Shown here: piece by piece, positions 19,048 through 53,188 of the stretch
Position numbering within the stretch: position 1 is the first letter of the stretch
Layout: each line of letters opens with the position of its first letter
NCBI GenBank assembly: GCA_950295325.1
Contig: OX485807.1
Coordinates: forward strand, 21,611,666-21,675,665
DNA length: 64,000 nucleotides
Source: Polytrichum commune
Lineage: Eukaryota > Streptophyta > Polytrichopsida > Polytrichales > Polytrichaceae
Direction of reading: 5' to 3'
The notes under the pieces: generated by a model
What the model was told of the DNA's origin: nothing
The model's database searches: none
Seen by the model: only the letters and a program-made list of their open reading frames with translations
Made by a program: the position numbers and the translations under genes

Positions 19048-19154
19048 TGTCGTGTAAACTAAGATCGTTAAACACAACAGATCGAGTGTCGGCGTCAACA
19101 TCAATTAGCAAAATAAAATAGCAAACTAAAATGCTAAACAACCACCTCTTCAAG
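19048..19154 (-). repeat. Element A terminal block B2 (107 bp)
   Basis: It matches 19589-19695 along its whole length as far as I can compare. On the plus strand it begins TGTCGTGTAAACTAAGATCG and ends CCTCTTCAAG. It abuts the left target duplication, so it is the outer 3' end of the element. Confidence 0.9.
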
Positions 19155-19586
19155 ATGAGGGTTTCTCTCTCCAAGCTTAAGAAACTAAAATGTCTCCTTA
19201 CAAAGCTTAAGAAACTCTAAAATTCACACACAAGAGTCAAGCTATCTCTCACTCCACGAAGGGAGAATCCAAGAGTGCAAGTGGTGGAGAAAGAATGCAA
19301 AGGCTTTACTCATAATCTACTACACCATAGCCATGAGAAAGCAACAACAAGCTCTCTCTCTCTCAAAACACACTCACAAGACTTGACTTGACAACAATGG
19401 CAAGTCAAGAGGCCTTCCTCTCCATACAACCCCAATCAACAGTGGAGTTCATCCATGGAGGGGATGAACAACTAACTAGGACTCCCAATGGAGTCCGTTA
19501 CTCATCCTAACACACATGGACTCCTAGTGGAGTCCATTTACTCCTAAATTGACGTGACTTAGCCCCCGATATCACCTCACGTGACA
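19155..19586 (-). repeat. Element A terminal block A2 (432 bp)
   Basis: It has the same length as 28495-28926 and matches it nearly base for base, with a short mismatch cluster around 19437. On the coding strand it starts TGTCACGTGAGG. It is separated from the inner 107-bp block by GC, which resembles the two extra bases left at retroviral end-to-end junctions. Confidence 0.9.
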
Positions 19587-19588
19587 GC

Positions 19589-19695
19589 TGTCGTGTAAAC
19601 TAAGATCGTTAAACACAACAGATCGAGTGTCGGCGTCAACATCAATTAGCAAAATAAAATAGCAAACTAAAATGCTAAACAACCACCTCTTCAAG
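19589..19695 (-). repeat. Element A inner block B1 (107 bp)
   Basis: This inner copy of the 107-bp terminal block directly follows the coding-strand purine tract GTGGGGGCA at 19696-19704. That is the position expected for the start of a 3' LTR, but here only 107 bp precede the GC dinucleotide and the second block pair. Confidence 0.9.
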
Positions 19696-20020
19696 TGCCC
19701 CCACTAGCAGATAAGGAGCCCCTCCAATCGGCTAGGAACAAACACACTCATCGGTAGAGTTGTTGAACATGATGAAGTTGTTGCTACATTTATACATATT
19801 CAATTGGGTAGTGGTAATCTAGGGAATTAAACTCATGATTGAGAAAGTAATCCAAGAACTATAGGCTGGGTGCAATTTGAGCCCCATCCTTAATCGCCTT
19901 CAACAATTTATGTTGAATTCTTGGATAACTCTTTCAATGTGATTTTCAATCTCATAAAATTTCCAACCAACTAAATAACAACTTCACCACTAAAACATGT
20001 GGTAAACATCCACAAAATCC

Positions 20021-23000
20021 TCAATCATGACCATTAACGGCCACGGAATGAGAGGCTTTCCGACAACGAGGACAAACCCAATTGCCAGAAGGAAGAGTAA
20101 AAAGGGGAGGTGTCAAACATGCCATGTGCCATCCACGTTGACATTGGTTGCACAATAACATTGTTGCAGCTCCTGTCTTCTCTCCACAAACATAACAAGG
20201 CAGACCCTGTGGTACAACCGCCAACTCGGGATGCACAGAGCCGTCGATGGAAATGTGACATGGAGCACAATTCTTTGAATGCTCACGACATTCCCGTCCA
20301 TCCTTGCCTTCAAGCAATAATATACCACTTGGCAAGACATCTTTTACCCGCAAAATCGTGCGCCCAACCTTGACATCCAATGTCGTAGGCGCCTCCCGTT
20401 GCAAGTAAACATAATCCCCCTTGGAAAATCTACGAACCTGAGGTCGATAAGCTCCACTGCGGATCCGAGCATACCGTAATGTATCACGATGTTGAGCAAT
20501 ATTTAAGTTCTCCATAGCCATAGGCATGGCCTTTTGGAAGAACGCTGCTCGGTCATGAAGACATTGAGCCCAAACATCTGGATCATCCAAGTTTACCACG
20601 GGAGCCAATTTCTCTTGCACCGAGCTAGGTAAAATTGGTTCCCGTCTATACAAGAGTTGGTAAGGACTATAGGATGCCAAAGATGCTTGCCTGCTGAAAC
20701 GATAACCCATTGCTATCCATGGTAACATCAAGTCCCAATCGCGATGGTTGCCATGAAGCAATCCATACTTCCGCAAACCGCGCTTAACTGTCTGAACAAC
20801 TCGTTCAGCTTAGCCATCTGCCTCAGGGTGATCTCTAGAAGTTGTCCGATGATCAATCAAAGCCTTGGTACACAAAGCCTCGAAAGATCCAAGGAATTCT
20901 CTCCCTTGATCCGTCAACACCTCTGCAGGTGCTCCAAACCGTGCCAAAACTCGATCAAGAAATGCCATAGCCGCCAATTCTGAGGAATTTTGGGGAAGAG
21001 CCACGAGTTCAATCCACTTACTAAAATGCTCCACCATCACAAGCACATACTTGGAACCACGTGGAGTGATAGTAAGCGGTCCGGCAAAATCCAAAGACCA
21101 ACGATATCCCAAGCCCATAATAGGTAAAGGCTGAAGTTGAGGTGACAAAGTATTAAAACTTGACCTGACCCGGTCACATACTTCACACCGAGAAACATAA
21201 GTGGCAACCTGTTGATACATACCAGTCCACCAATATTGGTTGCGCAACATAGAGTGCGTCCTTCGCACTCCAAAATGTCCAAGCTCCTCGTGCACTTGCC
21301 GTACCAAAGAAGCTCTTTGATTTGGCCTTGGAACAATGCGCCTCGTTCCGTTCGGCCACACACGAAATAACAAGTTGTTTGCCCAACGAAACCTTGTTAT
21401 CCGGTGACTAACTCTATCTCGCTCCATAGCAGATAGTCCAAGAGGAAATATCCCTTGTTGAAGTTTGTACAAGACCGCCTGGTCTTCCCACACATCACTA
21501 ATAACGAGAGATTTATCAACCTCCTCATCATGTTCTTCTACAAGGATCTCAGCAGCCAATCCCGACATCATTGTGAGATATGTGGCAGCATGCCAACCCG
21601 GCACTTCCTCACGATCACAATCTCCATGCCACCTGGCTCCAGTTAAATCCTCATCTGAAGGACTTGGATTGCGAGACAATCCGTCTGCATCCAAGTTGGC
21701 AATTCCTGCTCGGTGAACAACTTCAAAATCATATTCCTGAAGTAACAATGCCCACCTAGCAAGTTTCCCGGTGAGCTTATCTGATTCCATAAGCCATTTT
21801 AAAGGCTGATGATCAGTCACCAAAGTAAACTTTTGCCCATACAAATAAGGTCGAAAATGTGCAATGGCCCAAACGGCCGCCAAGGCCTCGCCTTCATAAG
21901 AAGAATAATTAGATTCAGCACTATTATTGCTTGTAGATGCATAAGCCACCACATATTCCTTTCCCTCTTCATCTTTCTATGTCAATACCGCTCCCAATCC
22001 CACTGCACTCCAATCCGTGTGCAATTGAAAAGCTCTAGACACATCCGGGCGTCGAAGCACTGGCGCTGAACCGAGCCTCTGCTTCAATGTATCAAATGTC
22101 TGTTGTTGTTCCCGACTCCAAATCCATGGTTGGTCTTTCCCCGTGAGAATGGTAAGGGGTTTGGCAATCAAACTAAAGTTTTTGACAAACCTCCTATAAT
22201 AATTTGCCAATCCTAGAAATGCACGAAGCCGTGGTACATCACTAGGTGCGGGAATTTTGTGCAAAGCATCCACCTTCGCCTGTTGCACACCAAGACCGCC
22301 AGGAACAATCATGTGGCCTAAATAGGGCAATTGATCATGGAAAAACTTACATTTTCCATGATGTAAACGGAGTCCCCACCGTTGAAGTCGTTCAAATACC
22401 GCTTGCAAATGTCTCACATGATCCTGTGAATTATTACTAAAGATGATAACATCATCAATGTAACATCTAGCAAACGGCAAACCAGCCAATAATTGGTCCA
22501 TCACCCGCTAAAATTCAGCTGGTGCATTTTTGAGACCAAATGGCAGAAATTTCCAATGATAAAGTTGATCCTTGCCATCTTTATGAATTCCCCAAAATGC
22601 GGTCTTCACCCGATCACCCAACAACAAAGGTAATTGGTGATAACCAGACCTTAAATCCAAAGTGCTGAAGATTCTAGAAAATCCTAGTGCATCAAACAAC
22701 TCCTCCGGCATCGGCATTGGATATCGATCCGACTTGGTCTTGCGGTTGACTGGACGATAATCACCACACATCCGTTTTTCCGTCCAGTTGCCAACGATAT
22801 CCTTCTTTGACGGCATAACCGTGGCACAAGCATACTCTCCATTGGAGAGTTCAATCAATTCCGCTGCCAATAACTCTTGACATCGAGTTTGAACACCCAA
22901 CCTTTCAGAGGTACTAAGTCTGTATGGCCGTCTGAAAATAGGGTGGTCGTCCTCGAGTTGAATACGAACAGGTTTACCTTTATATTCTTCAAGATCATGA

Positions 23001-23164
23001 AGACTAAAGGCAAAACAATTACGGTAAGAGCGAATAAATGCCCGTACCTTTCGTGCTTCGGCACCAGTAAGCTTTGGCCCCACTTCAATTGGCCAATCGT
23101 CAAACTCCGTAGTTTCCTTCTTCATAGAAGGATTGCCAATTGGTGCCAGCACAACCTGTGATTG
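20021..23164 (-). pseudogene. Element A ORF2: RT-RNase H-integrase-PHD
   Basis: This polyprotein lies downstream of the conserved UAG and in the same frame as gag. The reverse transcriptase carries the YIDD active site at about 22460. RNase H is recognisable by HTDWS, YEGEALAAV and VTDHQPL. The integrase has an HHCC zinc motif (H-x3-H..C-x2-C around 21190-21290) and DDE residues in DFAG, TDQGREF and HPEADG. A C-terminal PHD finger ends near 20063. Stops interrupt it at 22508 (TAG), 21977 (TAG) and 20810 (TAA). Element B has Gln, Gln and Leu at these places. No frameshift is needed. The RT and integrase are of Ty3/gypsy type. Confidence 0.93.
20063..20197 (-). other. PHD finger at integrase C-terminus (element A)
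   Basis: The Cys4-His-Cys3 pattern reads C-x2-C-x11-C-x2-C-x4-H-x2-C-x14-C-x2-C, with the conserved Trp two residues before the seventh ligand (NWVCPRC). PHD fingers typically read histone H3 tails, methylated or not at Lys4. Here it sits where chromoviruses carry a chromodomain, so a role in targeting integration is an inference. Confidence 0.88.
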
Positions 23165-23167
23165 CTA
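23159..23167 (-). promoter_or_regulatory. Leaky-type stop UAG CAA UCA (element A)
   Basis: The stop between ORF1 and ORF2 is in frame and is followed by CAATCA, which fits UAG-CAR-YYA, the plant-virus readthrough consensus. Element B has TAG CAG TTA at the same distance before a shared FDDW. Readthrough would make a full gag-to-integrase fusion at low level. Confidence 0.7.
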
Positions 23168-26100
23168 GTCCGTGGAGAGGGCAACACCTTTGCCCCCATC
23201 ATCTGCACTTGAATCCAAATGCGTATCCTCTCCACTACAATCAGTTTGTGTAGCTAAATAGCTATCCACATATAAAGTATCACCAAGAAGTAGAAGTGGA
23301 AACATTTTATGGGCCTCCAACTTCCCAAACTCTTGGGCCAAAGCCGAAAAACCACGTTGGACTTGAAGCTCTTCCGCAACATGAAGTTTCAAAGGAAATA
23401 ATCCCTCGGTGTCATTGACCTCAATGTGATCCTTGGATTGCGGCTCCATTGCCCCCTGACCATTGTTCTCTGCTCTCAGAGTAAGCAATCGGTCATCCAT
23501 ACGTTGTTGAGCAGCAAGACAAATTCCAATTATCCACACAATGCTATTAAGATCCATAGCTTGCCCCAATAGGAAACGTCTCTGACCTTCCTGAAGCTTG
23601 TGAGCAGCCGTGGTACCTGTAAGAAAACCCATGGCGCGTTCCCGCTCATCTGCCGTAGGCTCCTCATAAGTTTGGGATTTTAAATCCCAAACCATGCAAG
23701 GTCCACGAGATCGAAATGCAAAAGACTATGGATATGTCACAAAAGTAGGTAGTGCACCTCTCGGAATTCCCACCTTGTTAATTAATGCAAATGGCAAGGT
23801 GTCATCCTTGGTAACTGCCAAGGAAACACGATGATCATTTAAAATGTCATCCACCTTGCGATCCATAAGGCGGGGAATGCGGGCAATTGCCGCTGACAGC
23901 ACCCGAGGTGATACCAAGTTGGTCCAAAACCAACGAGGCCGATGAGCAAAGGATCCCAAAGATGCAGCATCCAGAAATGTTGGAGTACCCAAAATTTGGT
24001 TAATGTACTCACCATCCTTCACCACTTTGTGTCGGGTATCACCCAATAATGGTACATTTTCGAAAATGTACCCTGGCGGAGTTGATTGGTGGGTAAACCA
24101 CCATTGCGTCAATCGCATCAAATCCGCAAATAAACTAGACCTAGGATTATCCAATCCCTGGCCAGTTCCTGCCCGCGAATGGCCTTGACAAGGTCATCCT
24201 GCAATAATCAAATCCACGTGGCCCAACCTTCTCAAATCCTCATCAATAATCATAGTGACATCTTGAGGAAGTTGACCACAACATCCATGAATGGCAGAGG
24301 CTGACAATTGTGCGGGATATCTCAACAACAATTGTTGGATGTGGTGTCGGACGGCTCTGTTGGCTGCATACCCATTGTCTACATGAATATATCGCCAAAC
24401 TGTAATTCCAGCTTCCAACACTGCCGCCAAACCTGTGCCAATGCCTCCAAAGATCTCCACAAGGACAATACCTTCAGGTGATGGTTGCCAACGAATGAGT
24501 TGAGCAAAAGAAAATGAGGATGAAGTTGGGGATGCCTCTCCAAGCTCCAAATCCGCTACAATGTGTCGACAATGGTCGGATAACTCCTTAGGAGTTCGCC
24601 ATGGTGGAGGTGGATCCTTGAAATGTTGAGCATGAATTTGAAAAGATGGTAAAAATTGTTGTTCTGCCGCATTACAAGTGTAGGCCATTGTTTCCTCCAA
24701 TAAAACTGGAGCACAAGGCAAATCTGCAACTAAACCGTTGCAACCAAACATTGCCTCCGCAACCATAGTCATAGCAGTGGCTGCAAATGTGACAAGAATA
24801 AATACCTTCCTGCCATCTCCAGTGGACCATCCCGGTCTAATACATGCCTCTTCCGTCCAATTATCCAAACCAAAGCCAAGTGGGTAAAGAGCTTGCTGAC
24901 CAACAAGTATATCATAGTTGGTAGCATTAGTAACAACACACTTCATTGACAAATGAGTGTAAGTAGGCCCTGCCCCCACATGAAAAATCAAACGTAGAGG
25001 TGCCTTGGTGTAACCTGTTGCACGTTCAGTGCCCCCTACTGAAATCACAATAGTAAATGGACAAGGATCCAAGCTTGCTGGCGTCAATCCAAGACTGTCA
25101 GCAAGTCCTTTGCCAATCATAACCGGTTGAGCACCGGAATCCATCATAACTCTCAGTGGTGTAGCACGGATAGTGGGCATATCCGTGCGTGAAACGACAA
25201 ACAAAGATTTGTCGTTCATCAGCCGTACAACTCCAGGTTGCAAATTATGCCGTTCGCGAGCAGGCCTTGCAGAAATGTCTGCAAGATATGCCGCTCCCGA
25301 CGCATAATTCGAAAATGACGTATCCACTGCTGAAATTGATGCTGGAGGAATATCAGTTTGCTTACCAAAAGCAATGATCGCCGCATCCGCAAGACTCGCT
25401 CGCAAATTGGCTAAGTCCTCCACCTCGTCAGCCACAGGTACGTCAACCACAGCTTGGGATACTTGAAGGGATGGCAAAGCCGCCTTACCTTCTAACATTC
25501 TCCCAGCTAAATGAAAAACTGCAGCAGGCTTGAAATCCGAAGCCATAAATTCCGAACCCGAGAAAATTGGCATATGGAGAATTTTGTATGCCAATGCCTG
25601 CGTAACATCCTTCGAGATGGAATCCCCATCTCTCAAAGGTACAGGGTTTTTAGCCCCAACAACAGTGGTGTCTACCAATCCAAATGAAAGAGGTAAACGT
25701 GCTTGACCAATTTGATCAGCTGGTCCGGCATGGCGAGGATGTAGCACCTCGTGGCTACCCCCACTCGTGGAAGCCACCGCATCTGCCAATGTTTGTGAGC
25801 AAGTAGAAGCCGCCGCCACCACCTCTCCAGCTGCTCCAAACATATACATGTCCGAACCCGAGGTGCCACCACCCACATGCGGCTCAGAAATTTGAGCAAA
25901 AGATGCAGAAGATTTGAGCTTTTGCTCAAGCTCTGCCACCTTAGCCTCAAGACTCTGCTCCCTTGGAGACTTTCTAGTGACATAACTGGCAGGCCGCATC
26001 TCAGGATGAAGTAGGAAACAATGATCCACATCGTGATTAGTGCCACCACAATGGTTACATTTCAATTGTCTCTTCTTAGAATTGTCCCCTGCCCTTACTG

Positions 26101-27262
26101 GTTCCATCTTTTGTTTTAATTTTCCCAAAGGCTGAGTTTTCTTCTTCTTAGGACAATTGGGATCATTCTTCGAATGACCAGCTTCTCCACAACCCCAACA
26201 ATGCAAAATCTTTTGCTCCTTGACGGGTTGAGTCTCAGCTAAACTACTAGTAGCTGTGACAATTCTTCTTGGTTTCGGACTCTCTGTCATCCAAGATACC
26301 ATATCCGTGGCATCATGTTGGCAAAGAGCCCGATCACATCTCTCAACCACGGCAAACGCTTGTGCAAGCGTAGCTCGGCCCTCGTAGTCGAGGATAATCC
26401 GAGGTGATGCCAACTCAAGTAGCCGCTTGTCAATTTTAGACAAAAAGATTTTAACAAGCTGACTCTCAGCAAAAACACCTCCCGACTCCACAGCAAATCG
26501 CGCGAGTCGCGTATACATGGTCCATGGAGTATCATCCTTCTCTCGGCGGAAATCCTGGATGCGCTGCATCTGGTCTCGCCGAAACCCACCATACTCCACT
26601 TCCAAATGTGCGACAAATTCAGTAAGGGGATTAAACGGAGGTGGTGGACCAACAGCCGTCAATGCTGCCTGTGTAGCACGTGCCACCCGTGAAAGGGTTG
26701 CCGTGCTACTGCTAGCCACCATTGGCCCAAGTGCCAGTTCCGTGTCCTTAGACTCCGCCGGCGATTCCTCCTCCTTTAAGGTGGGTGGAGCTAAGGTAGC
26801 AATCGCCCCATCTTTAAGGGCTGAAATAAGCTCAACCCGGGCCTCCCAATACTGCTCCACCTCCCGAAGTTGTCGCTGATGACCCTCTGTCCAGCGTTCG
26901 TAAGTTTGGAGTGCCTCATACTCCAAATGCTGAGGCAGAAGTTCAAAGGCATACCAATCATTGAAATTGGAAGACCTTTGGCGTTTCTCCTTAATCCAGG
27001 TACGAAACCGGAGTTTCCAATCGGGCAAGGAAATGCCCCCAGCTCGACCTGAAAACCGATCACGCACTGAATTGTGGCGATCGTCCTCCATGTCGTCGAA
27101 CGTGCCGACACTCCAAATCCGAAGCCTACTAGTAGTGTCCAACGCCGAAATAGGCTCAAAAGCCTCGTTGGTATCTACCTCTGGCTCAAGATTTGTGGTG
27201 CCCACGTCCTCCAAGTAATCTGGTGATGGAGATCGATAATATCGACTCCTAGTTTGCACCAT
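23165..27262 (-). pseudogene. Element A ORF1: gag-protease-cytosine methyltransferase
   Basis: The start ATG at 27262 gives MVQTRSRYYRSPSP, matching MVTTRSQHYRSPSP in element B. A gag-like region comes first (about residues 1-350). Two CCHC-type knuckles follow: CWGCGEAGH..C, with a non-standard last spacing, and CNHCGGTNHDVDHC. A coiled-coil-like segment comes next, then an aspartic protease with MMDSGAQPVMIG near 25135. From about residue 931 there is a DNMT3/DRM-like domain. TGA at 24194 and TAG at 23726 replace Trp and Gln codons, judged by element B. The frame ends at a conserved UAG followed by CAATCA at 23165. Without the two nonsense codons it would be about 1365 residues. Confidence 0.92.
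23513..24472 (-). other. DNMT3/DRM-like C5-methyltransferase domain (element A)
   Basis: Motifs occur in the standard, unpermuted order. Motif I is VLVEIFGGIGTG and the segment DLIIAG leads to motif IV. Motif IV has PCQGHSRAG with the catalytic Cys, but the Trp before Pro is TGA. Motif VI is YIFENVP. The stretch LDAASLGSFAHRPRWFWTN resembles DNMT3 motif VIII. A C-terminal block ERERAMGF..EGQRRFLLGQAMDL resembles motifs IX-X. The spacing and motif VIII-X wording favour DNMT3/DRM over DNMT1/CMT. It is interrupted twice by nonsense codons, so it is inactive as it stands. Confidence 0.88.
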
Positions 27263-27412
27263 AAAATAATCCCTTGAGTACCTGCAACTATCTACAAGGT
27301 AATGGAAACCTGCACCTGTTGTGGACTATCTAAATGGCAATACCTTGCCAAATGCCAAATGCTTATGCCCCCAGAATTCCAAAATTGTGCAAAGGTTTGA
27401 GATTGGTAATTA

Positions 27413-27845
27413 AAATTAAAAATCAGCGTTGAAAATGTTCATTTCCAAGGTGATTATGAACTCCAATCAACAAACTAAGTGCACCAATGGACTCCTAGGA
27501 AGATTTCACACAAATTAGGCTCAAATTTCACTCCAATCGGAGTTAATTTGCTCCCAAAAACAAAAATCAGCGTTGAAATTAGCAATTTCAGCAATGATTT
27601 TGACTTCCAATCAAAAATCCAATCACACCATTGGATTCCTTGGCAAATTTCACACAAAATAGGCTCAAATTTACTCCGTTCGGAGTTAATTTGCTCCCAA
27701 AAACAAAAATCAGCGTTGAAATTAACAATTTCAGCAATGATTTTGAATCCCAATCAATAATCCAATTACACCATTGGATTCCTTGGCAAATTTCACACAA
27801 GATAGGCTCAAATTTCACTCCAATCGGAGCTAGTATGCCCCCAAA
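27413..27845. repeat. Three tandem ~142-bp repeats in leader A
   Basis: The stretch AATCAGCGTTGAAA recurs near 27420, 27565 and 27709. A segment starting GGCTCAAATTT recurs near 27521, 27662 and 27804. The period is close to 142 bp with about 90 percent identity between the two complete units and a more diverged first unit. Confidence 0.88.
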
Positions 27846-27896
27846 TTTGAACCTCAAAGTGTTGAGAGTCAAATGCCAAGTTTGAAAGGTATAAGT

Positions 27897-28040
27897 AAAA
27901 AAAAGTAAAAAGTAAAAAGTAAAAAGTAAAAATAATTGTTTATATATATTTTTATTTAAATAAAAAACAAAAACAAAAACAGAAACAGAAACAAAACAAA
28001 AACAAAAACCAAAACCAAAAATAAAAAAAATAAAAAAAGG
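27897..28040. repeat. A-rich simple repeats
   Basis: AAAAAGT repeated four or more times, then an AAAAAC/AGAAAC tract. These are low-complexity sequences inside the leader of element A. Confidence 0.85.
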
Positions 28041-28494
28041 GAAGGGGAAGGGGGCTAACCTGGGCTTGGCTGGCGCCGCCCGCCCGCCCGGCTTGCATAA
28101 CCGGAGCTCCAGAAGCTTTAGGAGGGTCCGGTGAGCTCCGGATCCGTCCGGAGCTCAACAAAATTTAAAAACAAATCGGATTTGAACTTAAAAAATTAAA
28201 ACTAAATCGGATTTGATTAAAAAAATTAAACTTTGCTTCCACAATTTGCAAGCAAGAAAGATGTGACTTGAGATTCCATTTGGTCTCAAGATTCAACCAT
28301 CAACAATTCAAGAAAACACAAAGAGACACCAAAAGAGAAATGTGAAGATTTTTCTCAAAATCTTCTTGAGGGTTGCAAGGAATTGCAAACTAAGCTTTCA
28401 TACACTTGTATCACTCATTTGCTCCCACTACTGGGCCCTTCTAGCTCAGAAATACAACCAAAAATGAAAAATTTGAATACAATTGTTGTCAAGT

Positions 28495-28926
28495 ATGAGG
28501 GTTTCTCTCTCCAAGCTTAAGAAACTAAAATGTCTCCTTACAAAGCTTAAGAAACTCTAAAATTCACACACAAGAGTCAAGCTATCTCTCACTCCACGAA
28601 GGGAGAATCCAAGAGTGCAAGTGGTGGAGAAAGAATGCAAAGGCTTTACTCATAATCTACTACACCATAGCCATGAGAAAGCAACAACAAGCTCTCTCTC
28701 TCTCAAAACACACTCACAAGACTTGACTTGACAACAATGGCAAGTCAAGAGGCCTTCCTCTCCATACAACCCCAATCCTATGTGGAGTTCATCCATGGAG
28801 GGGATGAACAACTAACTAGGACTCCCAATGGAGTCCGTTACTCATCCTAACACACATGGACTCCTAGTGGAGTCCATTTACTCCTAAATTGACGTGACTT
28901 AGCCCCCGATATCACCTCACGTGACA
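28495..28926 (-). repeat. Element A terminal block A1 (432 bp)
   Basis: This is the 5' end of the element on its coding strand, starting TGTCACGTGAGG directly after the right target duplication. It matches 19155-19586 but lacks the 107-bp block that follows that copy, so the two ends are not ordinary full-length LTRs. Confidence 0.9.
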
Positions 28927-41642: not shown

Positions 41643-41749
41643 TGTCGTGTAAATACCGATCGTGTGTCACTACAGCTCGAGTACCAACCACCACTAACAA
41701 ACAACACTAAAATATAGCAAAGTCACACATGAAAAACACATCTCGACAT
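41643..41749 (-). repeat. Element B 107-bp terminal block
   Basis: It begins TGTCGTGTAAATACCGATCG and ends ATCTCGACA on the plus strand. It is homologous at its outer end to the 107-bp block of A, has TG/CA ends, and follows GGGGGGCA on the coding strand. No matching direct repeat is found on the right side of the element. Confidence 0.8.
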
Positions 41750-42030
41750 GCCCCCCTTAGCTGACTATGGAGTCCCGCCAAGCAGCTAGGACCAACGCCA
41801 ATCCAAGGGTATGGATAATGAAGGATTGCTCCGCAACCAACTAGCGTGGTGAACGTCATCCCAAGGAACTGTAGGCTGGGTGCAATGTGAGCCCCATCCT
41901 TAATCGCCTCTGATGTTTGGCCATCAGATTCCACAGAATTAATTTCACCGCCTCATGTCGATTGCGTCTCTAGGCCATAACTCCTCATTTTTCATTTGGG
42001 CAGGCACAAGATGATGAAAATCACATATCA

Positions 42031-45000
42031 TTAAATACGATTGGTGCGAGCACCAAGTACCGAAGATCCTCGACAGCGAGGACAACTCCACTGTCCAGAT
42101 GGTAGAGAAGTCAAGGGTGGCCTCAAGCATGCCATGTGCCAACCATGTTGACACTGATCACACAAGAGCATAGTAGACGCTCATTTCTTCTCTCCACACA
42201 CAAAACATGAAAGACCCTCTGGCACGACGGCCAGTTCAGGATGAACTGTACCCTCAATGGATAGATGACATGGGGCATAGTTTTTGGAATGCTCGCGACA
42301 TTTCCTGCCATCCTTGCCTTCCAACAACAACAAACCACTCGGCAACACCTCCTTCACCCAAAGGATAGTGCGCCCCGCCCTGACATCCAATGTCGTAGGT
42401 GCCTCACGTTGGAGATAAACATAATCCCCTTGCCGGAATCTCCGCAACTGAGGTCGGTAAGCAACACTGCGAATGCGTGTATAACGCAATGTGTCACGGT
42501 GTTGAACAATGGACAAATTCTCCATGGCCATAGACATGGCCCTCTGGAAGAATTGAGCCCGCTCATGCAAATACTCTGCCCAAATGTTTGGGTCATCCAA
42601 GTCCAGAATATGAGCTAGCTTTTCCTGAATAGAGTTCGGGAGAATAGGCTCACGTCTATACAATAACTGATACGGGCTGTATGATGCCAAAGAGACCTGC
42701 CTACTAAATCGATAGCCCATAGAAATCTAAGGCAACATAAGGTCCCAATCCCGGTGGCTTCCCCGAAGTAATCCATACTTCCTCAAGCCACGCTTGGTTG
42801 TCTAAACAACCCGTTCAGCCAAGCCATCTGCCTCTAGATGATCCTGAGAGGTGGTGCGGTGATCTATGAGCGCCTTAGTGCACAACTCCTCCAAAGCACC
42901 AAGGAACTCCCTCCCTTGGTCCGTCAACACCTCAGCCGGTGCTCCAAAACGTGCTAACACACGATCCAATAAGGTGGCCACGGCCAACTCTGCAGAGTTT
43001 TGGGGTAGAGCAACAAACTCAATACACTTGCTAAAATGCTCCACCATCACCAAAACGTACTTTGCTCCACGTGGTGTTACCACCAACGGCCCTGCAAAGT
43101 CCAGCGACTAACGGTAGCCCAATCCCATGATAGGTAAGGGCTGTAACTGAGGTGATAAGGTGTTAAAGCTAGACCTGACCTGGTCACAAACTTCACACCT
43201 CCCGACATAGACAGCCACCTGCTGATACATGCCAGTCCACCAATATTGGCCACGCAACATCGAATATGTCTTGTATATGCCAAAATGGCCAAGTTCCTCG
43301 TGCACTTGTCGCACCAAGGAGGCCCTCTGATCCGGCCTAGGAACAATACGCCTTGTCCCATCCGGCCACAATCGAAATAACAAACCGTTCTCCCAACGGA
43401 ACCTCGTTATTCGTTGTTCAATCCTATCCGTTTCCATTGCCGAAATAGACAAAGGAAAGGTACCCTGTTGAAGTTTATGCAATACGGGAAGATCCTCCCA
43501 TATATCCGCAATAACTTGAGGCCGATCAATCTCATCATCCGAGCCCTGTATCGGAATCTCAACAGATGCACCCAAAAATAAACTGACGTAAGCAGACGCG
43601 TGCCAACCTGGAACAGCCTTTCGGTCACAATCTCCATGTCACCTGGCCCCGGTCAAGTCCTCATCCGAAGGACTTGGATTGCGTGAGAGTCCATCTGCAT
43701 CCAGGTTGGTAATCCTAGCACGGTGTACCACCTCAAAGTCATACTCCTGGAATAACAAAGCCCACATGACAAGCTTGTCAGTAAGCTTATCCGACTCCAA
43801 GAGCCACCGTAACGGCTGATGGTCAGTCACTAAAGTAAAGTGCTGACCATAAAGATACGGCCGAAAATGGGCAATAGTTCATACCGCCGCCAATGCTTCT
43901 CCCTTATAGGATGAATAATTGGCCTCTGCCGTGTTATTGCTTCGCGAAGCGTAAGCAACAACATACTCCCGGCCAAAATCATCCTTTTGAGTGAGAACTG
44001 CTCCCAAACCCAATGAACTCCAATTCGTATGCAACTGGAAGGATTTGGAGACATCCGGATGTCGAAGCACTGGAACCGCACCCAGTTTCTGCTTCAATGT
44101 CTCAAATGCCTTTTGTTGCTCACGACCCCAAGTCCAAGGTTGGTCCTTGCTCGTGAGAATGATAAGAGGTTTGGCGATCAAGCTAAAGTTCTTGACGAAT
44201 TGACGATAGTAATTCGCCAAGCCCAAGAAAGAACGAAGTCTCGGCACATCGACCGGTGCCGGGATCTTCTGCAAGGCGTCCACCTTAGCTTGTTGCACCC
44301 CAAGACCTCCTGGAATAATCATATGACCTAGATATGCTAGTCAGTCATGGAAAAACTTGCACTTGCCATGGTGCAAGCGCAATCCCCACCGCCGTAATCG
44401 CTCAAAAACGGCTTGAAGATGCTTTACATGCTCATGTGGTGTTTTGCTGGAAATGATTAGGTCATCAATGTAACACCGAGCAAAAGGCAAGCCAGAGAGA
44501 ACTTGGTCCATCACTTTCTGAAACTCAGCAGACGCATTCTTGAGGCCAAATGGAAGAAACTTCCAATGGTATAGTTGATCCTTCCCATCATGATCAACTC
44601 CCCATAATGCAGTCTTCACCCGATCTCCCGTAAGTAATGGCAGTTGGTGATATCCGGATCTCAAGTCCAAGGTGCTAAAGACCCGAGAAAATCCGATGGC
44701 ATCGAACAACTCCTCCGGGATTGGCATGGGATACTGATCCGACTTGGTCTTCCGATTAACTGGACGGTAATCCCCGCACATCCTCTTCTCCGTCCAATTG
44801 CCAAAAATATCCTTCTTCGATGGCATCACCGTAGCATAAGCATACTCCCCGTTGGAAAGTTCGATTAGTTTTGCTGCCAAGAGCTCTCGACAACGGGCCT
44901 GAACGCCAATCCGCTCGGAAACATTGAGTCTATAAGGTCTCCGAAAAATGGGATGGTCGTCCTCCAACTGAATGTGGATGGGTTTTCCTTTATAACCTTC

Positions 45001-45174
45001 AAGATCCCGAAGGCTAAAAGCAAAACATCTACGGTACGAGCGAATGAATGCTCGTACCTTCCGTGCCTCAGCACCAGTGAGATGAGGGCCTAATTCCAAT
45101 GGCCAATCATCAAACTATGTGGTCTCTCTCTCCATTAGAAGAGAGCCACCTGGTGCTGGCACGGACTCTAACTG
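42031..45174 (-). pseudogene. Element B ORF2: RT-RNase H-integrase-PHD
   Basis: One reading frame without frameshift holds a reverse transcriptase with CYIDD near 44480, RNase H, an integrase with HHCC and DDE motifs, and a PHD finger. It ends at TAA 42031. Nonsense codons at about 45115, 44341, 43879, 43639, 43108, 42802, 42727 and 42181 interrupt it. Alignment with A puts most at Trp or Gln. It is clearly homologous to A throughout. Confidence 0.9.
42073..42207 (-). other. PHD finger at integrase C-terminus (element B)
   Basis: All eight ligands of the Cys4-His-Cys3 pattern are kept (CFVC, CDQC, H, C, CPRC) with the conserved Trp before the last pair. A TGA between the first and second ligand pairs replaces Gly. 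The spacing is the same as in A. Confidence 0.85.
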
Positions 45175-45177
45175 CTA
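45169..45177 (-). promoter_or_regulatory. Leaky-type stop UAG CAG UUA (element B)
   Basis: In-frame TAG followed by CAGTTA, fitting UAG-CAR-YYA, exactly twenty codons before the shared FDDW, as in element A. The surrounding protein sequence is not well conserved, so the shared stop and hexamer stand out. Confidence 0.7.
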
Positions 45178-48100
45178 ATGAGAGTAGGAGGCATTAACCA
45201 TGCCCCCAACCTCCGTGCTAGCAATAGAGTCCATCCCCTCTTTATCACCACCAATATGTGATGATGAAGCCACCACCGGAGATGAAGAAGCCAAAGCAGT
45301 ATAAACTCGTTGAGCTCGGAGCTCCTCCATCACCTGCTGCTCGAATCGACAGATTCGTTCGGCTTCTCCAATCATGACATCAATTCCCTCCTCTATGGAT
45401 ATGGACCGTTGTGCCCCCTGACCAGAATCCTCTGCCCCCAGAGACAATAACTGGTCACCACGATGCCGTTGCAATGCAAGGCATAAACTAACAGTCCACA
45501 CCATGGTATGGAGATCCATGGCTTGGCACAATACGAAGCGTCGTTGGCCCTCAGAAAGGCCAGGAACTGCGGTGGTACCAGTGCGGAAGCCATGGCACGC
45601 TCTCGTTCGTCAGCCGAGGGTTCGGTATGAATGTTGGTGGTAGCATCCCACACCATACCCGGCCCCTGATCGCGGAAGGCGAATGACTGTGCAAACGTCA
45701 TAAATGTGGAAAAGGCCTTCCGTGGTGCCCCCACTTTGTTGACTAATGCCAACGGGGGTAAATCATCTCGAACAACCGACAAGGAGGTCCGGTTTGGATC
45801 CAAGATATCATCCACCCTCTGATCAAAAGGTGGAGGTACTGCAAAAATTGCTGCAGCTACAGTAGAAGACAGTGCGGGGTTGGTCCAAATCCACCGAGGC
45901 CGGTGGGCATAAGAACCAATGCTCGCGGCATCTACAAAAATGGGATCTCCAAGGTGTTGCCGAACATAATGATCGCCTTCCAACATTTTATCCCGAGAGT
46001 CTCCCAACAATGGTACATTCTCGAAGATATACCCTGGAGGGGTATGTTGGTGGGAAAACCACCACTGCATGAGGCGGATGAGGTCCCAAAATAGGCTAGA
46101 CCTGGGATCCTCTAGACCTCGACCGGCTCCAGCACGTGAATGGCCCTGGGATGGCCATCCCGCAATTACCATATCCACTGGACCCAAGTGTCGTAAGTCG
46201 GCCTCACTAATGAGTGTGACATCACGAGGAAGACGTGAAAAACACCCATGAATGGCAGTCGGGTGTAACTGCTGAGGATACAACACCATGAACTGGTGAA
46301 GATGGTGACGAGCCACACGGGTGGACACTTGAGAGTTGTCCACATAGACATACCGCTTGACCATAAGGCCAGCCTCCAAAACGGCTGCTAATTCTGTGCC
46401 AATGCCCCAAACAACTCAACCAAAGTAATCCCAGTGTCTAGAGGGCGCCACAAAATGGGGCGTGCCAATGTGGATAGACTATCCAATATGACTAGTGTGG
46501 GAGAACTGAGAGAGAGAATAATGTCCTCACATCGTTGGAACAAGCCGGAGGAATCACGCCACGGAGGTAGAGGGTCCTTAGGATGGCGTACCAAGGTATG
46601 CCTAGGTGCCATCTCTCGTGGGTCTTCAACATCTCCCATGAATGCCAATGACTCCTCCAATACTGCGAATCCATAAGGCAATTTATCCACAATAGCACTG
46701 CATCCAAAAACCATGGATGATGGTTCGATGGTGGCGGCAGCTGCAAAGGCCACATAAATAAGTTCCCTACGGCCGTCTCCAACTGATCAACCTGATCGGA
46801 TCCAAGCCTCCTCAATCCAGTTGTCCAAACCAAAACCGAGGGGGTAAAGTGCTTGCTGACCAACTAAAATTTCATAGTTGGTCGCATCCGTCACCGCACA
46901 TCTGAGAAGAAGAGGTGCGGGTGAATCTCCAGGCTTCACTTGGAAGCTAAGCTGTAATGGCTCCCGAATATAATCAGTGGCCCGCTCCACGTGGCCAATA
47001 GATGTGACAATGGTAAATGGGCATGGAGCCAAGTCGTCGGTTGTCAACTGCAATGCCTGCGCCAACTTTTTGCCGATCATAACAGGTTGTGCTCCTGAAT
47101 CCATCATCACACACTGTGGAGCGACTCGAATAGGGTTTCCACCATCCCGACTGACAATCAAAATGCCAGAATCATTCACCATCCGTACAACGCCAGGTCG
47201 AATGTCTCGACGCTCGCGAGCAAGTCGAGCAGCTACATCTGAAAGATAACCGACGCCTGCAGAGGCTGGTGAATCATAAGATGAGGTTGGCTCTTGGCCA
47301 TCTAAGTTATGTGCGTCAAAAGACGCAATGGCCTCAGCCGCAAGCCTCGCTCGCCGTTTGGCCGCTTCTTCCGAATTTTCCGTGGTAGGAAGGTCCGCGG
47401 TGGCTTGAGCCACAGTCAAAGAAGGCGGGGATGCCTTGCCCTCCAAAATCCTACCTGATAGGTGAAAAACCTTAGCGGGTTTGACATCAGATGATGACCA
47501 CTCCATCGCTGTAAACAAAGGGGTGTGCAACACTTTGGATGCCAAAGTGTGCACCACATCGGTCGCCGGATTCGAAGCCTCCAAGCTCGAATTACGAGCA
47601 CTGATAGATTGGGCAGCATCAACCAATCCAAAAGACAACGGAAGACGTGTCTGGCCAATCTGATCCTCAGGACCATTGTTCCGAGCGTGTAAGTTGTCCA
47701 CAGACTCCCCTATGGTCGGAGGCGTGGCTTGTGACACGGTTTGAGCACGTGTCACCGTTGCGGAACTCTCCACTTGTCCAGAAGCTCCGAACATATGATA
47801 ATCTGGAGTGGAAGAACTAGCCTTAGTACCGAAGGTAGATGGTGAGTCCAAAATTTGGTCGGATGACGCCAAACTCTTAAACCTCTCCTACAAGGCACCA
47901 ACCTTGGCTTCCAACGCCTTTTCCCGTTCGGAAGTAGGACGTTTTTTCTGGATGGAGAGCAAAGCAATTCTCCACCGCGTGATTATTCCGCCCACAATGG
48001 GAACACTTCAACTGTTTGGGTAACTGATTATCCGCCTCCTTCGCCGAGCCCTTAGCAAGAACAAATGGTTTCCGCTTCGGAGTAGTGACGGTCTAGGCTT

Positions 48101-49256
48101 GCCTTTGCTTCGAAGGACAATCCTTCTTAGCATGGCCCGTCTGCCCACAAGACCAACAATGCAAAGTCTTGTCTACCTCTGCCTCCGCCAACCTTGCAGT
48201 CGCGATTGGAGCCTTCCGGGACTTGCTAGAATCCACTAGCAAGGATACCAAATCAGTGGCATCGTGCTGACACAATGCACGATCATACTGCTCCACCATG
48301 GCGAATACATCTACGAGTGTCGCCCGACCACCAAATTCCATGATGATGCTGGGCAACGCCAAGTCAAGGAGGCGTTTGTCAATCTTTGACAAGAACACCT
48401 ACACCAACTGACTTTCCGCGAACACACCTCCAGATTCTCTGGAAAACCTCGCCAACCTCGTATACATGCTACGAGGTGTATCGTCCTTCTCCCGTCTGAA
48501 ATCATGTATCCGCTGCATCTGGTCACTACGGAAGCCTCCGTATTCCTTCGGTAGATGCAGCTCAAATGCCCGCAATGGCTCAAAATCTGGCGGAGCCCCT
48601 AAAGAGGCTAAAGCCGCTTGGGGGGCCTGGGCATAACGCGATAGTGGAAGAACTGGGCTCGACGTACTCTCCGCAGTGGGAGCAAGATCCGTAGCCCTCG
48701 GCTCACCAGGAGGAGCTCCCTCCACATCCACCACATAACCTCCCTCCGGTACGTCTGACTTAACCTCAGGAACGGCCATCAAACTGGAAGTTGTGCCTTT
48801 CTTCAATGCGGACACCAACTCAACCCGAGTCTCCCAGTACCGCTCCACCTGGCGCAGCTCCATCTAATGAGCATCCGTCCATTGCTCATAGGTCTGGAGG
48901 GCTTTATGCTCCAAATGCTGTGGCAGAAGCTCGAACGCATATCAATCGTTGAAGTTGGTATTGCGTTGACACTTCTCCCTCATCCATGTTCTGAACCGAA
49001 TTTTCCAATCTTGCAAGGAAATGGTCCCTGCTCGATCAGAAAATCGGTCCCGGATGCCGCCTCGGGTCTCCTCCTCCATCTCGTCAAAGGATCCCACCCA
49101 AAGGACGTAAGACCAAGTGGCAGTCCCCCACGCCGAAGAAGGTTGAAAAGCCTCGTCGGGTGCTACCACGGGTTCACTGTCCAAAAAGTCCGAAGATCGA
49201 CCTTGCGATGATGCCGGAGATGGAGAACGATAATGTTGGCTCCGAGTTGTAACCAT
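45175..49256 (-). pseudogene. Element B ORF1: gag-protease-methyltransferase (broken)
   Basis: The start MVTTRSQHYRSPSP is at 49256. Gag-like sequence with CCHC knuckles (CWSCGQTGHAKKDC, CSHCGRNNHAVENC) comes first, then a protease with MMDSGAQPVMIG near 47100, then the DNMT-like domain. Nonsense codons lie at 48942, 48864, about 48396, 48093, about 47886 and 46787. One-base frameshifts lie near 47945 (A-run), 46405 (G-run inside methyltransferase motif I) and 45595. Clear homology to A persists across all breaks. Confidence 0.88.
45478..46436 (-). other. DNMT3/DRM-like domain (element B), catalytic Cys lost
   Basis: Motif I (TLVELFG, then GIGTELA after a frameshift), DMVIAGWPSQGHSRAG for motif IV, YIFENVPLLG for motif VI and VDAASIGSYAHRPRWIWTN for motif VIII align with element A. 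The catalytic Cys of motif IV is Ser. The C-terminal block EGQRRFVLCQAMDL corresponds to motifs IX-X. The Trp before the PC site is intact here, showing the ancestral codon lost in A. Confidence 0.85.
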
Positions 49257-50795
49257 AAACATGCAATGGATTTGGTCACTGGAGCCAACAACGTAAACAA
49301 ATGTGGTATTAGGATAAAGGCAACCTGCACCTGCAACCACCACCAAATGTTATGGTCTGCAGGTCATAAATCCAACCTCACCATAAGGGAATACAAGCAC
49401 CGCCCACTTGGTGCACACATAAAGCTCTTGTCGGTCATTACTCCGACCTCACCCCCACAATATCCCATCACAGACTAGGACAACACAAAATGGGGCAATG
49501 TTGGAAGACTCCACCACAAAAGCCCGCCACGGGCGAAGATACCACAACAAAATACAAGAAACAATGCAATAACAGCACTGGATCCTCTTCCCCAACACAA
49601 CACTTAAATAAAAATTGAAAGCGACCGCGACCAACCGGCACCCGCCTGCGGTTGGTGGTTAAAATGAAAAGCCCATGTTGCTGAAGAAAATGAAATGCTA
49701 CCTATACACATCTCTCATCTTCCCACTACAACCTAAGAATCCCTCCTCACAAGAATGCCAGAAATATGCGTTTACAAACACAATTCGGACCTAATAATAA
49801 TTTATTTGAGGCCGAACGGAATTTCACATGTCACCCAATTTCTAATGACACTTCCTCGGAAATTTTGTGCAACACAATTCCTATAAGAAATCCCGAATAC
49901 CTTAATATATAATAAGAAATTTGGGGTTCATCTTGTATTCTTGATTAATGAAAACAAGAAGTTAACCTCTTAAAGAGAAAATAAAAATTAGAAGTTCAAA
50001 GAAACTATAAAACAATATTTAAATTAAAAAAATCCCGTTTTAATTATTTAATTGAATAAAATAAAAAAGTCCGGTTTTTAATTAATTAATGCATTAATTA
50101 GTTTAAAATTTTTTTTTTTAAAGATAGATGTTAATATGTAACCGGTTGGGTTTGCAAATACCCGGATCTCAACCAATTACGACCCAAGAGTATCCCCGAT
50201 CCAATAATTGATTTAATCCACCCCAGCTAAAGGGGGTTACCCTGGCAGGTACAGGTAATAAAGGCAGGTACCCTGATAGGCAGGTAGCCGCCGAAGGCTG
50301 ACACAGAGGCAGACAGCGCAGGAAAGCAGCGCAGGCAGACAACGCAGGCAAACAGCACAGGCAGACAGCGGCAGACAACAGAGGGGGGCAGGCTGCCTCC
50401 CTCTTCTTTTTCTTTTTTCTTTTTTTTTTTGGTCAAAATTTGAGCCCTTCTCAAGGATCAAAAATACCCCCTTCACTTCCTACCTCACAAATTCATGCTT
50501 GTAGGCAACTAATAACAAGAAATTCCGTGTAGTATTGAGAAATTTCTCATCACAATTCAAAATGATGTGTAAACTTCACAAGCAACTTTTTTCTTCTTGT
50601 TGCTCCGCTAGTCCGCGATGTTTGTCGTTCTCCACTCCAAAATCCCGCCACCACTTGTCCTCACACTCTTTCTTGAGTGTTATAGCTCAAGATTTGAAGA
50701 AAACAGAATGAATCATGCGCATTCTTGCCAAGTAAGAAGGAAGAGAGTAGAACATTCATAATAGCTCTAAATTTCTCTTCAAATGCACACAATTA
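49257..50795 (-). other. Element B untranslated leader
   Basis: Non-coding DNA of about 1.5 kb between the diverged 5' block and gag. It contains an AT-rich stretch (49900-50120), the motif shared with 7826-7870 (50137-50180) and a CAGGCAGACA-type repeat (50247-50386). No primer-binding site was identified. Confidence 0.6.
50247..50386. repeat. Degenerate GCAGGCAGACA repeat
   Basis: GCAGGCAGAC(A) and variants recur roughly every 10-25 bases, together with GCAGGTACC and CAGGCAGGTA. It is a low-complexity minisatellite within the leader of element B. Confidence 0.75.
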
Positions 50796-51067
50796 GTCAA
50801 GCTATCTCTCATTCTACCACGGGAGAATCCAAGAGTGCAAGAGAGGGAAGAAGAACTCAAGATTTATTGCAAAAACATGCAATCTACACCTCACACAAGC
50901 TCTATCCACACACTAACTCACAAGACTTGATTTGGCAAGAATGCCAAGCCAAGGAGGAGGCTCCTCACTTAGGAGCCTCACTTTCCAAAACTAAGGTTCA
51001 TCCATCCAACTCTAAATGGATGAAGCCCAACGGATAAGGTGCGGCCGCCGACGCCGCATACCGTGAT

Positions 51068-53188
51068 AGGTCATTTTTCACATGATTAGCTAAAAATGAA
51101 AGTATGCAACTCAAATTTTGTGGCTAAAGAGGACCATTCTAGGCCTCTTAGATGCATAGGGTTTAACCTATAAATGTTTTTAGCATGTTTGTATTATTTA
51201 TGCATTCTCTTTATATACTGAATGTTATGAAATGCTCGTCAAATTCCTTCCAAACTACATTGGGTGGTTGTCGAGAAGTGTACCCTTCCAAGAAAGGGAA
51301 AAAACTTTAAATAAAAAGAGGAACATCAAAATGTTTTTATATTGACATGCGATGTCTCCATTGACTACCTGTGTGAACATGGTGTAACCTTCCAAGACAA
51401 CAGGCTATCGTTATCTACCAAAACCCTTACCAACTCCTCCAACTCCGGCATCGCAAGATCTCTCGCAAGTATAAACCAGCAATTGTTCCCCAATCAAGAT
51501 TGGTCAACAAATCCTTGGTGCATGAGGAATCCAAAAGCTGAGGCATCAATTGAAACTCCAAAACACAACGATAACATGCGGGAGTTTGGGAGTTGTTCGG
51601 TTGCCACGTTGTTGAAACCCATAACGGTTTGTTCATTTTCCGTATCTCTTGCCACCCTCGCTTGAAACTCGGCCCATACCGGATCCTCATGCAATTCTTC
51701 ATGGATGCCTTTCCATATTTTCACTTGTGATTTTTGCCTCTCCTCCAAGCCCTTGTGGTTGTCTCTTGTACTCCAATAGCTACTTTCAAGTAAACTCGTA
51801 TTCCATCTAAATCTTTGTCGCCTCCGTCCTCCACCACATCAACAATTTGGAGTTCATGCCAAAAGTTTATCGCTCACGGGTTTAGGGTTCACCAGGACAT
51901 TCTCGTGCAATTTTTTGTTCGACATGGTTTGAATAATTCATTGTGAGCACTCAGTGCCATGGCCACCATATTGATGTCAGATCTTGTCATCTCGTGAGCA
52001 CTACCTTGTTTTTATACCTCCCAAACGTCCCACACCATGTGCATAAACTATCCTCACAAACAGGCATCGGATTCGACCAAGGTAATTGATTGCGAAATAC
52101 TAATTTGCTCTGATATCAACAAGGTTATCTTATTGCTGCTTCTTCTTCTCCTTGTAGTTGTTCTTTGCACTATTGATGATAATGTTGGCCTTGCCACAAG
52201 CATACCATTTTGGTGCATATGAACATTAAAAAGGTCCAGTCGAATGCATTCAGATCGTTTCTTGGTGCAGATAGCTGCAAACAAGAGCTGCAGTGGAGTG
52301 TCACATATTCCACAAGAATTTTGATCACCCTCCTCCGGAATATTGTTTTGATCCACCAACCTTACTCAAATTGCAATACTGATGACGCCCTGCAATTAGT
52401 TCTTCCTGTGATTGTTTCTTGAATGCTTGCACAAAGCCTGACACCATCATTAAAGAGTATTTTAAGGTTTTGTACTCATCTTCTTGATCGCATCTGTTTC
52501 CACGTCGTTTTGTAAACCAAGGTCTGAAAATTCAGTAGTCAGTGGATTTGTGTCTGCAGTCCCCATCTTTACAAACTATCCCTAATTACATAGTTTGAGG
52601 GTAGACTTTTGACACATAGGAGAGAAATCAAAGGACTTTAAACCACCAGCACCACCACAACAACAGAAGTAGGGGGGAGAGAAAAACAAAAAGATAAGAC
52701 CCACACTTTTTCCACTGCAAACGGCTCCCAAAACCAACCCACTTTCTCCCAAATCCAACCCGCTTTGTGCCAACCACCAACCCCAAATTCTCTAAAAAGC
52801 ATCCCACTTTTCACCCAAATCTGCCCACACTTTGTGCTGAAGACATGCGGACGGATTAATGTGTGGTCCAGTTAGGGGATTAGGAAGCATGCACAGACCC
52901 TAGTGTAAACAAATAGAATTGAAATTTCCTGATGGGCACATACTCTTAGCTCGTCTTTGAGCCCAGAGTAGTGAAGTACAACAGATAATAAGAGAAACTC
53001 CTCATTGAGATTAACAGACTTCAATCCATGAAGTAAAAACACCACAGGGTAAACGCAAATGGTTTACACCAGTCCAAAGAACTTGTTCTGAAGTTAAAAG
53101 TCTACGCTAAAAGTAAAACCCCTTGTAATTTGGGTTCTCCAACCAGAGCCCTGGATAACTTTAAAATAATGTGTATGATACACCACGA
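51068..53188. other. Intergenic region downstream of SUA
   Basis: No supported gene. A charged minus-strand open frame at 51494-51748 and another at 52054-52359 have no recognisable similarity and no splice partners that I can defend. The SUA 3' untranslated region must lie in the last few hundred bases. Confidence 0.4.

Follow-up and report, generated by a model that had tools for sequence, protein, structure and literature searches.

The closest described element, KnitGypsy-Dnmt3, comes from Klebsormidium nitens, a charophyte (de Mendoza et al. 2018, PMC5890265). According to the parts of that paper drawn on here, it has an unrearranged DNMT3-type DNA methyltransferase (MTase) in a Gypsy polyprotein, DIRS-like repeats and purifying selection, and it shares all of these with the family described below. 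KnitGypsy-Dnmt3 has a charophyte host and an MTase placed in Pol, whereas the present family lives in a land plant and has its MTase before a putative leaky stop. The same parts of the paper leave target duplications, a palindrome and self-priming unmentioned for KnitGypsy-Dnmt3, and the words PHD and chromodomain are absent from PMC5890265. SymbioDIRS-Dnmt3 of dinoflagellates also carries a DNMT3-type MTase in a split-repeat retroelement, but is of the DIRS class and is described there as an independent acquisition. The authors proposed cDNA methylation and reported that DNMTs of retroelements methylate CG sites de novo. A sequence-only reading of the DNA studied here had pointed to MTase retrotransposons in dinoflagellates and a charophyte, and this precedent is real. 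PMC12344493, citing the 2018 paper, places retroelement DNMT3 in streptophytes and dinoflagellates, and bryophytes are unmentioned in the part of it that was used.

Other known systems resemble single parts of the family. Tf1/Sushi, Tcn1 and TAR elements self-prime, as this family appears to, and Tcn1 occurs in moss and club-moss (PMC6317226, in part). In vitro, the integrase of the spumavirus PFV cuts the palindrome of the 2-LTR circle after CA on both strands, giving two-base 5' overhangs (PMC1180852, in part); that palindrome is formed by LTR end joining, whereas here it is a fixed sequence within the repeat. Ginger1 DNA transposons have a Gypsy-like integrase with C-terminal extra domains including PHD, but, as DNA transposons, they have inverted terminal repeats and encode proteases of the Ulp1 or OTU kind (PMC2836005, in part).

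The combination of MTase and Gypsy element is not new, having been published for Klebsormidium (PMC5890265). In the literature searched, which consisted of open-licence papers and had most subscription papers outside it, neither an MTase retroelement from a land plant nor a Gypsy integrase with a PHD finger was found among the papers listed. As far as the open-licence literature shows, what is new is that the host is a land plant, that the MTase precedes a predicted leaky stop, that a PHD finger is present, that target duplications and split repeats occur in one element, and that the element has an internal palindrome and presumably primes itself. MTase-bearing Gypsy elements, so far described from a charophyte, are thereby extended to land plants, with high copy number and some recent insertions. 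The family also offers testable parts: a candidate 10-bp target of the integrase, a stop codon whose leakiness would put MTase output on a par with Gag, and a PHD finger in the position of the chromovirus chromodomain.

The methyltransferase domain and its relatives

The window, i.e. the whole 64,000-nucleotide stretch of Polytrichum commune DNA that was analyzed, holds two copies of the family, elements A and B. Minus-strand positions 24472-23513 are the C5-cytosine MTase domain of element A, located between the protease and the reverse transcriptase (RT) of a Ty3/Gypsy element. Its motifs, which we take to be numbers I, IV, VI and VIII, and the corresponding frame of element B are as follows:

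23513..24472, minus strand: DNMT3-type C5-MTase domain, element A (Pfam profile, structural-relative search and motif positions)
24466-24431, minus strand: MTase motif I, VLVEIFGGIGTG, element A (motif read)
24193-24176, minus strand: MTase motif IV, PCQGHS, element A (motif read)
24064-24050, minus strand: MTase motif VI, FENVP, element A (motif read)
23944-23924, minus strand: MTase motif VIII, HRPRWFW, element A (motif read)
23650-23624, minus strand: DERERAMGF, element A MTase (motif read)
23581-23549, minus strand: RRFLLGQAMDL, element A MTase (motif read)
45396..46379, minus strand: element B MTase frame, with PSQ replacing PCQ (open reading frame list, Pfam and motif read)

The catalytic motifs are thereby confirmed at the minus-strand sites where the sequence-only reading had put them. 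Its larger claim, that a Gypsy-type element carries a C5-MTase flanked by protease and RT, was borne out and holds across copies, and the common frame that it proposed was also found, with the protease motif upstream in frame and the RT in frame past the TAG at 23167. The putative leaky stop, the PHD finger, the split repeats, the target duplications and the broken state of both window copies go beyond what that reading had reported. A profile check for a C5-methyltransferase placed PF00145 above its cut-off (22) in both window copies, at E 1.2e-6 and 28.7 bits for the piece of copy A downstream of its stop and at E 1.2e-9 and 38.5 bits for copy B.

Judged by their frames, both window copies are broken and neither is able to make the MTase enzyme, because copy A has a TGA at 24196, directly before PCQ, together with further stops, while in copy B the frame shifts between motifs I and IV and PSQ stands for PCQ. 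The other in-frame stops of copy A are at 23728, 22510, 21979 and 20812, plus the TAG at 23167, which alone is common to all copies read. An altered genetic code for copy A was ruled out, since of its six internal stops the open copies share TAG 23167 only. Copy A has 48 private changes across the 4319 alignment columns on which eight sister copies are unanimous. Of these, 35 are C>T or G>A, the pattern that a methylated insert would show as it decays; their contexts were CHH 20, CHG 7 and CG 5, with 3 unclear, against 1406, 267 and 314 available sites, and none was strongly favoured.

A PF00145 profile search of the host genome (407.8 Mb, of which 406 Mb lies in seven contigs of 42-78 Mb) gave 123 places beyond the window copies (352 candidates, 123 scored). 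Part of these places were inspected, and one is the host's own DRM gene. Database searches returned 22 and 81 proteins with the MTase domain, the two lists sharing at least one member (P0017). The best protein-database match, P0001, a cluster of 48 sequences, stands at 96% identity. Klebsormidium nitens was the sole eukaryote named in the list of 81, through the KnitGypsy-Dnmt3 protein (P0100), which matches the family MTase at 37% over 57%. Because the domain recurs in both window copies, at other places in the host genome and in the 22 and 81 database proteins, it is no chance insertion, the alternative that had been raised against it.

An independent contig, L047 (CADCWO010000201.1), carries an MTase that is 73% identical, together with TAG CAA TCA, an RT and a PHD finger. 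It is filed in a cyanobacterial genome bin yet carries a plant-type retroelement, and the bin is probably contaminated. Its 'circular' label (127-bp end overlap) probably reflects the assembly of a repeated element, a true circle being the less likely cause. A protein named as coming from an Obscuribacterales MAG (P0028) resembles this case. In addition, a sequence from viral contigs (L046) gave a 36% match over 73 residues.

The type of the enzyme was explored with a profile prepared from 17 family proteins. Among structural relatives, DNMT3A came top (77 bits), followed by DNMT3B, DRM2 (44-53 bits), HaeIII, HhaI and DNMT2, and no DNMT1-type chain was present among the 55 chains listed. The element MTase has its motifs in the canonical order, I to X. 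The host DRM, used as the rearranged control, has motif X preceding motif I and gave a DRM2 match of 168 bits. Because the order is canonical and DNMT3A stands above DRM2, whereas the host DRM is rearranged, the element MTase is, by profile and motif order, DNMT3-type and a DRM-type enzyme is ruled out. Of the earlier label 'DNMT3/DRM-like', the DNMT3 part stands and the DRM part falls, the DRM2 match being lower and the rearrangement lacking.

For comparison, 20 copies were fetched, selected for long open MTase frames and not as a random sample, so that motif counts and dN/dS are biased to intact copies. They form two subfamilies, to which elements A and B belong. In these chosen copies PCQ, ENVP and HRPRW were intact in all 18 frames left after filtering by length (L009 and L011 were filtered out). 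Between subfamilies, over 28 pairs (24 for the protease and the stretch before the MTase) and with dS saturated, dN was 0.278 for the MTase, about half that of the flanking stretches (0.583 before, 0.466 after) and far above that of RT (0.052) and integrase (0.074); the values for protease and PHD finger were 0.266 and 0.170. Within subfamilies, dN/dS of the MTase was 0.275 in B and, on few changes, 0.575 in A, that of RT was 0.12-0.13 (0.127 in A), and that of the PHD finger was 0.63 and 1.22, on very few changes. On these rates the MTase is constrained, with purifying selection between subfamilies that is weaker within them. In subfamily B the mean dS of the MTase region, 0.134 in six copies, was higher than that of RT, 0.053 in five copies, with partly differing copy sets drawn from L010, L023, L024, L025, L027 and L028; this difference hints at exchange between lineages.

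Coding architecture and the putative leaky stop

The following coding features were located in element A:

19048..28926, minus strand: element A, whole, 9879 bp, TGTC...GACA, arranged A1-internal-B1-GC-A2-B2, with the target duplication TCTT outside both ends (repeat comparison and end reading)
23165..27262, minus strand: ORF1, encoding gag with two CCHC-like knuckles, protease and MTase; broken in copy A at 24196 and 23728
25121..25147, minus strand: protease active-site motif MMDSGAQPV (Pfam protease matches below cut-offs)
23159..23167, minus strand: leaky-stop signal TAG CAA TCA (compared with the consensus of PMC2754532)
20021..23164, minus strand: ORF2, encoding RT, RNase H, integrase and PHD finger; broken in copy A at 22510, 21979 and 20812
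22465-22448, minus strand: RT motif CYIDDV (same frame as the MTase, past TAG 23167)
20057..20197, minus strand: PHD finger (PF00628, 41.2 bits; Pfam)

Protease, RT, RNase H and integrase stand in the order of Ty3/Gypsy elements, the protease under its Pfam cut-off and the others over theirs. The family almost certainly has the architecture gag-protease-DNMT3-type MTase followed, beyond a UAG with the surroundings of a leaky stop, by RT-RNase H-integrase-PHD. ORF1 ends in TAG CAR YYA in 23/23 copies (20/20 fetched loci, both window copies and L047), and the stricter CAA UYA follows the UAG in 21 of the 23, the exceptions being L022 and element B. Straight after the TAG, ORF2 is open in frame for 1045-1048 amino acids in 11 of the 20 loci; it is shifted or broken in the other nine. 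CAA UYA after a leaky UAG is the Type I consensus, tested in plants, and the readthrough candidates given in the part of PMC2754532 that was used include rice gypsy elements, so the leaky stop as a device is already known. The sequence context makes it highly probable that the UAG of this family is a leaky stop of the TMV type. Since the MTase is upstream of that stop, it should, from its position, be made at Gag level, with every Gag molecule.

The nearest structures to the PHD finger of copy A in the PDB are the fingers of CHD4, PHF12 and ubi-d4, and PHD-like spacing is present in 17/20 loci (absent from L009, L013 and L028) as well as in L047. No chromodomain was present in Pfam matches up to E 1, and the PHD finger occupies the C-terminal place. 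Chromoviruses such as Tcn1 and Tf1/Sushi differ from this family in having ordinary LTRs and a chromodomain. The words 'PHD' and 'methyltransferase' are absent from the survey PMC6317226. That the PHD finger serves as a chromatin tether of the integrase is slightly more likely than not.

Split repeats, element ends and priming

The terminal organization of the two copies is as follows:

28495..28926, minus strand: repeat A1, 432 bp, starting TGTCACG, 4 mismatches with A2
28726..28740, minus strand: presumed self-primer stretch in A1, matching the primer site over 13 exact bases, or 15 with one mismatch
28480..28494, minus strand: presumed primer binding site directly 3' of A1, ACTTGACAACAATTG, element A
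19696..19704, minus strand: presumed polypurine tract, GTGGGGGCA, ahead of B1, element A
19589..19695, minus strand: repeat B1, element A
19583..19592, no strand: palindrome GACA-GC-TGTC at the meeting of B1 and A2, presumed integrase site
19155..19586, minus strand: repeat A2, element A
19048..19154, minus strand: repeat B2, element A, ending ACACGACA
41643..51069, minus strand: element B, degraded, of the second subfamily, A1-internal-B without A2-B2, flanks GACC/TACC (3/4)

Plain LTRs at both ends, a criterion of Ty3/Gypsy elements, were not found, and A1-internal-B1-GC-A2-B2 is present instead; the family, by its domains and repeats, is a Gypsy relative with other ends. The split arrangement A1-internal-B1-A2-B2 was found in 17/20 loci and element A, while L012, L015 and element B have the short form A1-internal-B, L012 and L015 both with target duplications; at L023 no repeats were seen. 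Where both are present, B1 and B2 are direct repeats of 105-110 bp that are 98-100% identical. A1 and A2 are exactly equal in six loci (L014, L018, L019, L021, L024 and L026), showing some insertions to be recent. At L017 an internal duplication of ~130 bp was observed in A2, and A1 of that locus matches A2 over 561 bp, as expected if one template serves both repeats.

The elements end in TGTC...GACA, and a perfect 4-bp target duplication lies outside TGTCACG and ACGACA in all 15 copies read at both ends. These are 14 loci and element A; the 5' end was outside the fetched sequence for L025 and L028 and unfetched for L010, L011, L022 and L023. A scripted re-check returned 14/15, having taken a second, outer TGTCACG at L015, where placing the end by BLAST yields AACG/AACG. 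All 15 copies have flanking DNA directly next to A1, with no B in front.

The B1/A2 junction reads GACA-GC-TGTC in 16/17 loci, L009 having GATA for GACA. A genome-wide search for the GACA/TGTC junction, with a pattern that allowed spacers of other lengths, found 172 places, and the reversed control found 0. Among the 100 junctions listed of these 172, the spacer was two bases in every case (GC 85, AC or GT 13, TC 1, GA 1). A local oddity or an assembly fault is ruled out by the 17/20 loci with split repeats and the 172 junctions. With little doubt, the conserved ends and junctions mark TGTC/GACA as the sequence on which the integrase would act. The A2|B2 seam was found at 107 places, and the 100 listed comprise 94 CAT|CTT, 3 CATA|CTT and 3 others. 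The extra A in those 3 of 100 corresponds to the base with which the primer site opens.

The sequence directly after A1 is ACTTGACAACAAT(GGC) in subfamily A, ACTTGGCAAGAATGC in subfamily B and ACTTGACAAAGAT in L047. In 7/7 copies examined this site is complementary to the copy's own A repeat, over 13-16 exact bases in four A-type copies and 13-15 in three B-type copies. The L047 site has 13 complementary bases, the sole exact inverted 13-mer match in the non-coding part. The pairing is maintained in three lineages despite different letters, and reverse transcription is very likely self-primed on this evidence. A G-rich purine tract precedes B1 in 15 copies and in L047. Between the primer site and ORF1, the leader of element A was observed to hold a 143-bp unit repeated 2.5 times (window 27482-27845).

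A proposed cycle and its alternatives

The RNA would start in A1 and prime on itself at the site after A1, and the second strand would be initiated at the purine tract ahead of B1. Because the primer site follows A and the purine tract precedes B, the linear cDNA is predicted to be [B-GC-A]-internal-[B-GC-A], with two repeats. Its ends would then be joined into a circle, the joining making the A2|B2 seam. The integrase would cleave each strand of GACA-GC-TGTC behind CA, so producing both processed ends at once; the CA ends would be recessed and would carry two-base overhangs, as integrases require them. The inserted A-internal-B-A-B would be a circular permutation of the linear cDNA, and the short form A-internal-B could arise if both palindromes were cut or from a one-repeat circle. 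Before integration the MTase may methylate the cDNA and so give it a host-like appearance, and the PHD finger may tether the integrase to histone H3. This whole scheme, a self-primed Ty3/Gypsy family with a circle opened at the palindrome and an MTase acting on cDNA, is the best explanation and reasonably likely to be right. Opening of the circle at the palindrome, as suggested by the ends and junctions, is about equally probable in its own right, while action of the MTase on cDNA is proposed more tentatively.

The scheme can be weighed against other ways of obtaining split repeats. The repeat order is that of DIRS-like elements, as was noted for the Klebsormidium element, and in a restoration of the DIRS/PAT kind an internal B1-A2 template would bridge the ends of linear cDNA, which the integrase would insert without any joined circle. 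The A2|B2 seam is near-invariant (94 of 100 listed), tighter than careless end joining would leave, and could be templated in this manner. However, the primer site at the A end and the purine tract at the B start call for an ordinary two-repeat cDNA, and the A that is sometimes added at the seam agrees with a base left over from the primer, leaving such restoration rather unlikely. A tyrosine-recombinase mechanism as in DIRS, with a borrowed Gypsy RT, would account for the split repeats only. DIRS elements are not known to make target duplications, and such a mechanism is contradicted by the perfect 4-bp duplications in 15/15 copies and by the integrase domains H2C2 and rve; no match of this kind was present in the Pfam results for the ORF2 pieces either, and it is extremely improbable. 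For the short form the case is evenly balanced: the 105-110 bp direct repeats, 98-100% identical, would permit B1 x B2 recombination after insertion, in place of another cDNA form.

The target of the MTase may also be read differently. Action on particle cDNA is the simplest reading, because the enzyme would be carried in Gag. The sequence-only reading had proposed that the enzyme could restore symmetry marks, silence competitors or counter host defence. Its target could indeed be the DNA of the host or of competing elements, with rivals silenced, the methylome of the host altered or defence countered, and enzymes of the type found in Symbiodinium elements do methylate CG de novo in yeast (PMC5890265, in part). 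As a part of Gag the MTase would nevertheless be confined to particles, and the same source describes the Klebsormidium methylome as land-plant-like despite such elements, which makes this target improbable. It is somewhat more doubtful that the domain is not used as an enzyme at all, being a passenger or a portion of Gag that binds DNA or has a structural role. Its dN, far above that of RT and integrase, would suit this reading, but dN is only about half that of the flanking stretches and the three catalytic motifs are kept in all of the filtered frames, albeit of chosen copies.

On the most far-reaching reading, which has somewhat less than an even chance, the family would be an LTR-type element with an obligatory DNA circle, whose attachment site is a fixed palindrome within the repeat that is opened by the integrase, and in which methylation accompanies the circular stage and not a class of retroelement. 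The latter is suggested because such elements repeatedly carry DNA MTases, namely DNMT3 in the present family, in the Klebsormidium element and in the DIRS elements of Symbiodinium, and adenine MTases in other DIRS. If confirmed, the circle would explain how a DDE integrase works with split repeats and would tie DNA methylation to a circular retroelement stage.

Several other features were observed in the window. A 1-Cys peroxiredoxin is encoded in a single uninterrupted frame at 1-774; its best named relatives are from liverworts (Riccia, 84-85%; scoring covered the 8000 candidates with most words in common), and metagenome proteins reach 90%. In the host genome MIR160 gave four matches above its cut-off, against none in 14 control genomes; together with the liverwort relatives this marks the host as a land plant, most probably a bryophyte. 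The start of a 6-phosphogluconate-dehydrogenase-like NAD-binding protein (PF03446 above cut-off) lies at 4643-5146 on the minus strand, and an OCRE-like piece, slightly below its cut-off, at 54270-55283 on the minus strand. At 16070-16851 a 260-bp unit occurs three times head-to-tail, the units being ~85% alike, with shorter diverged relatives extending to ~18060.
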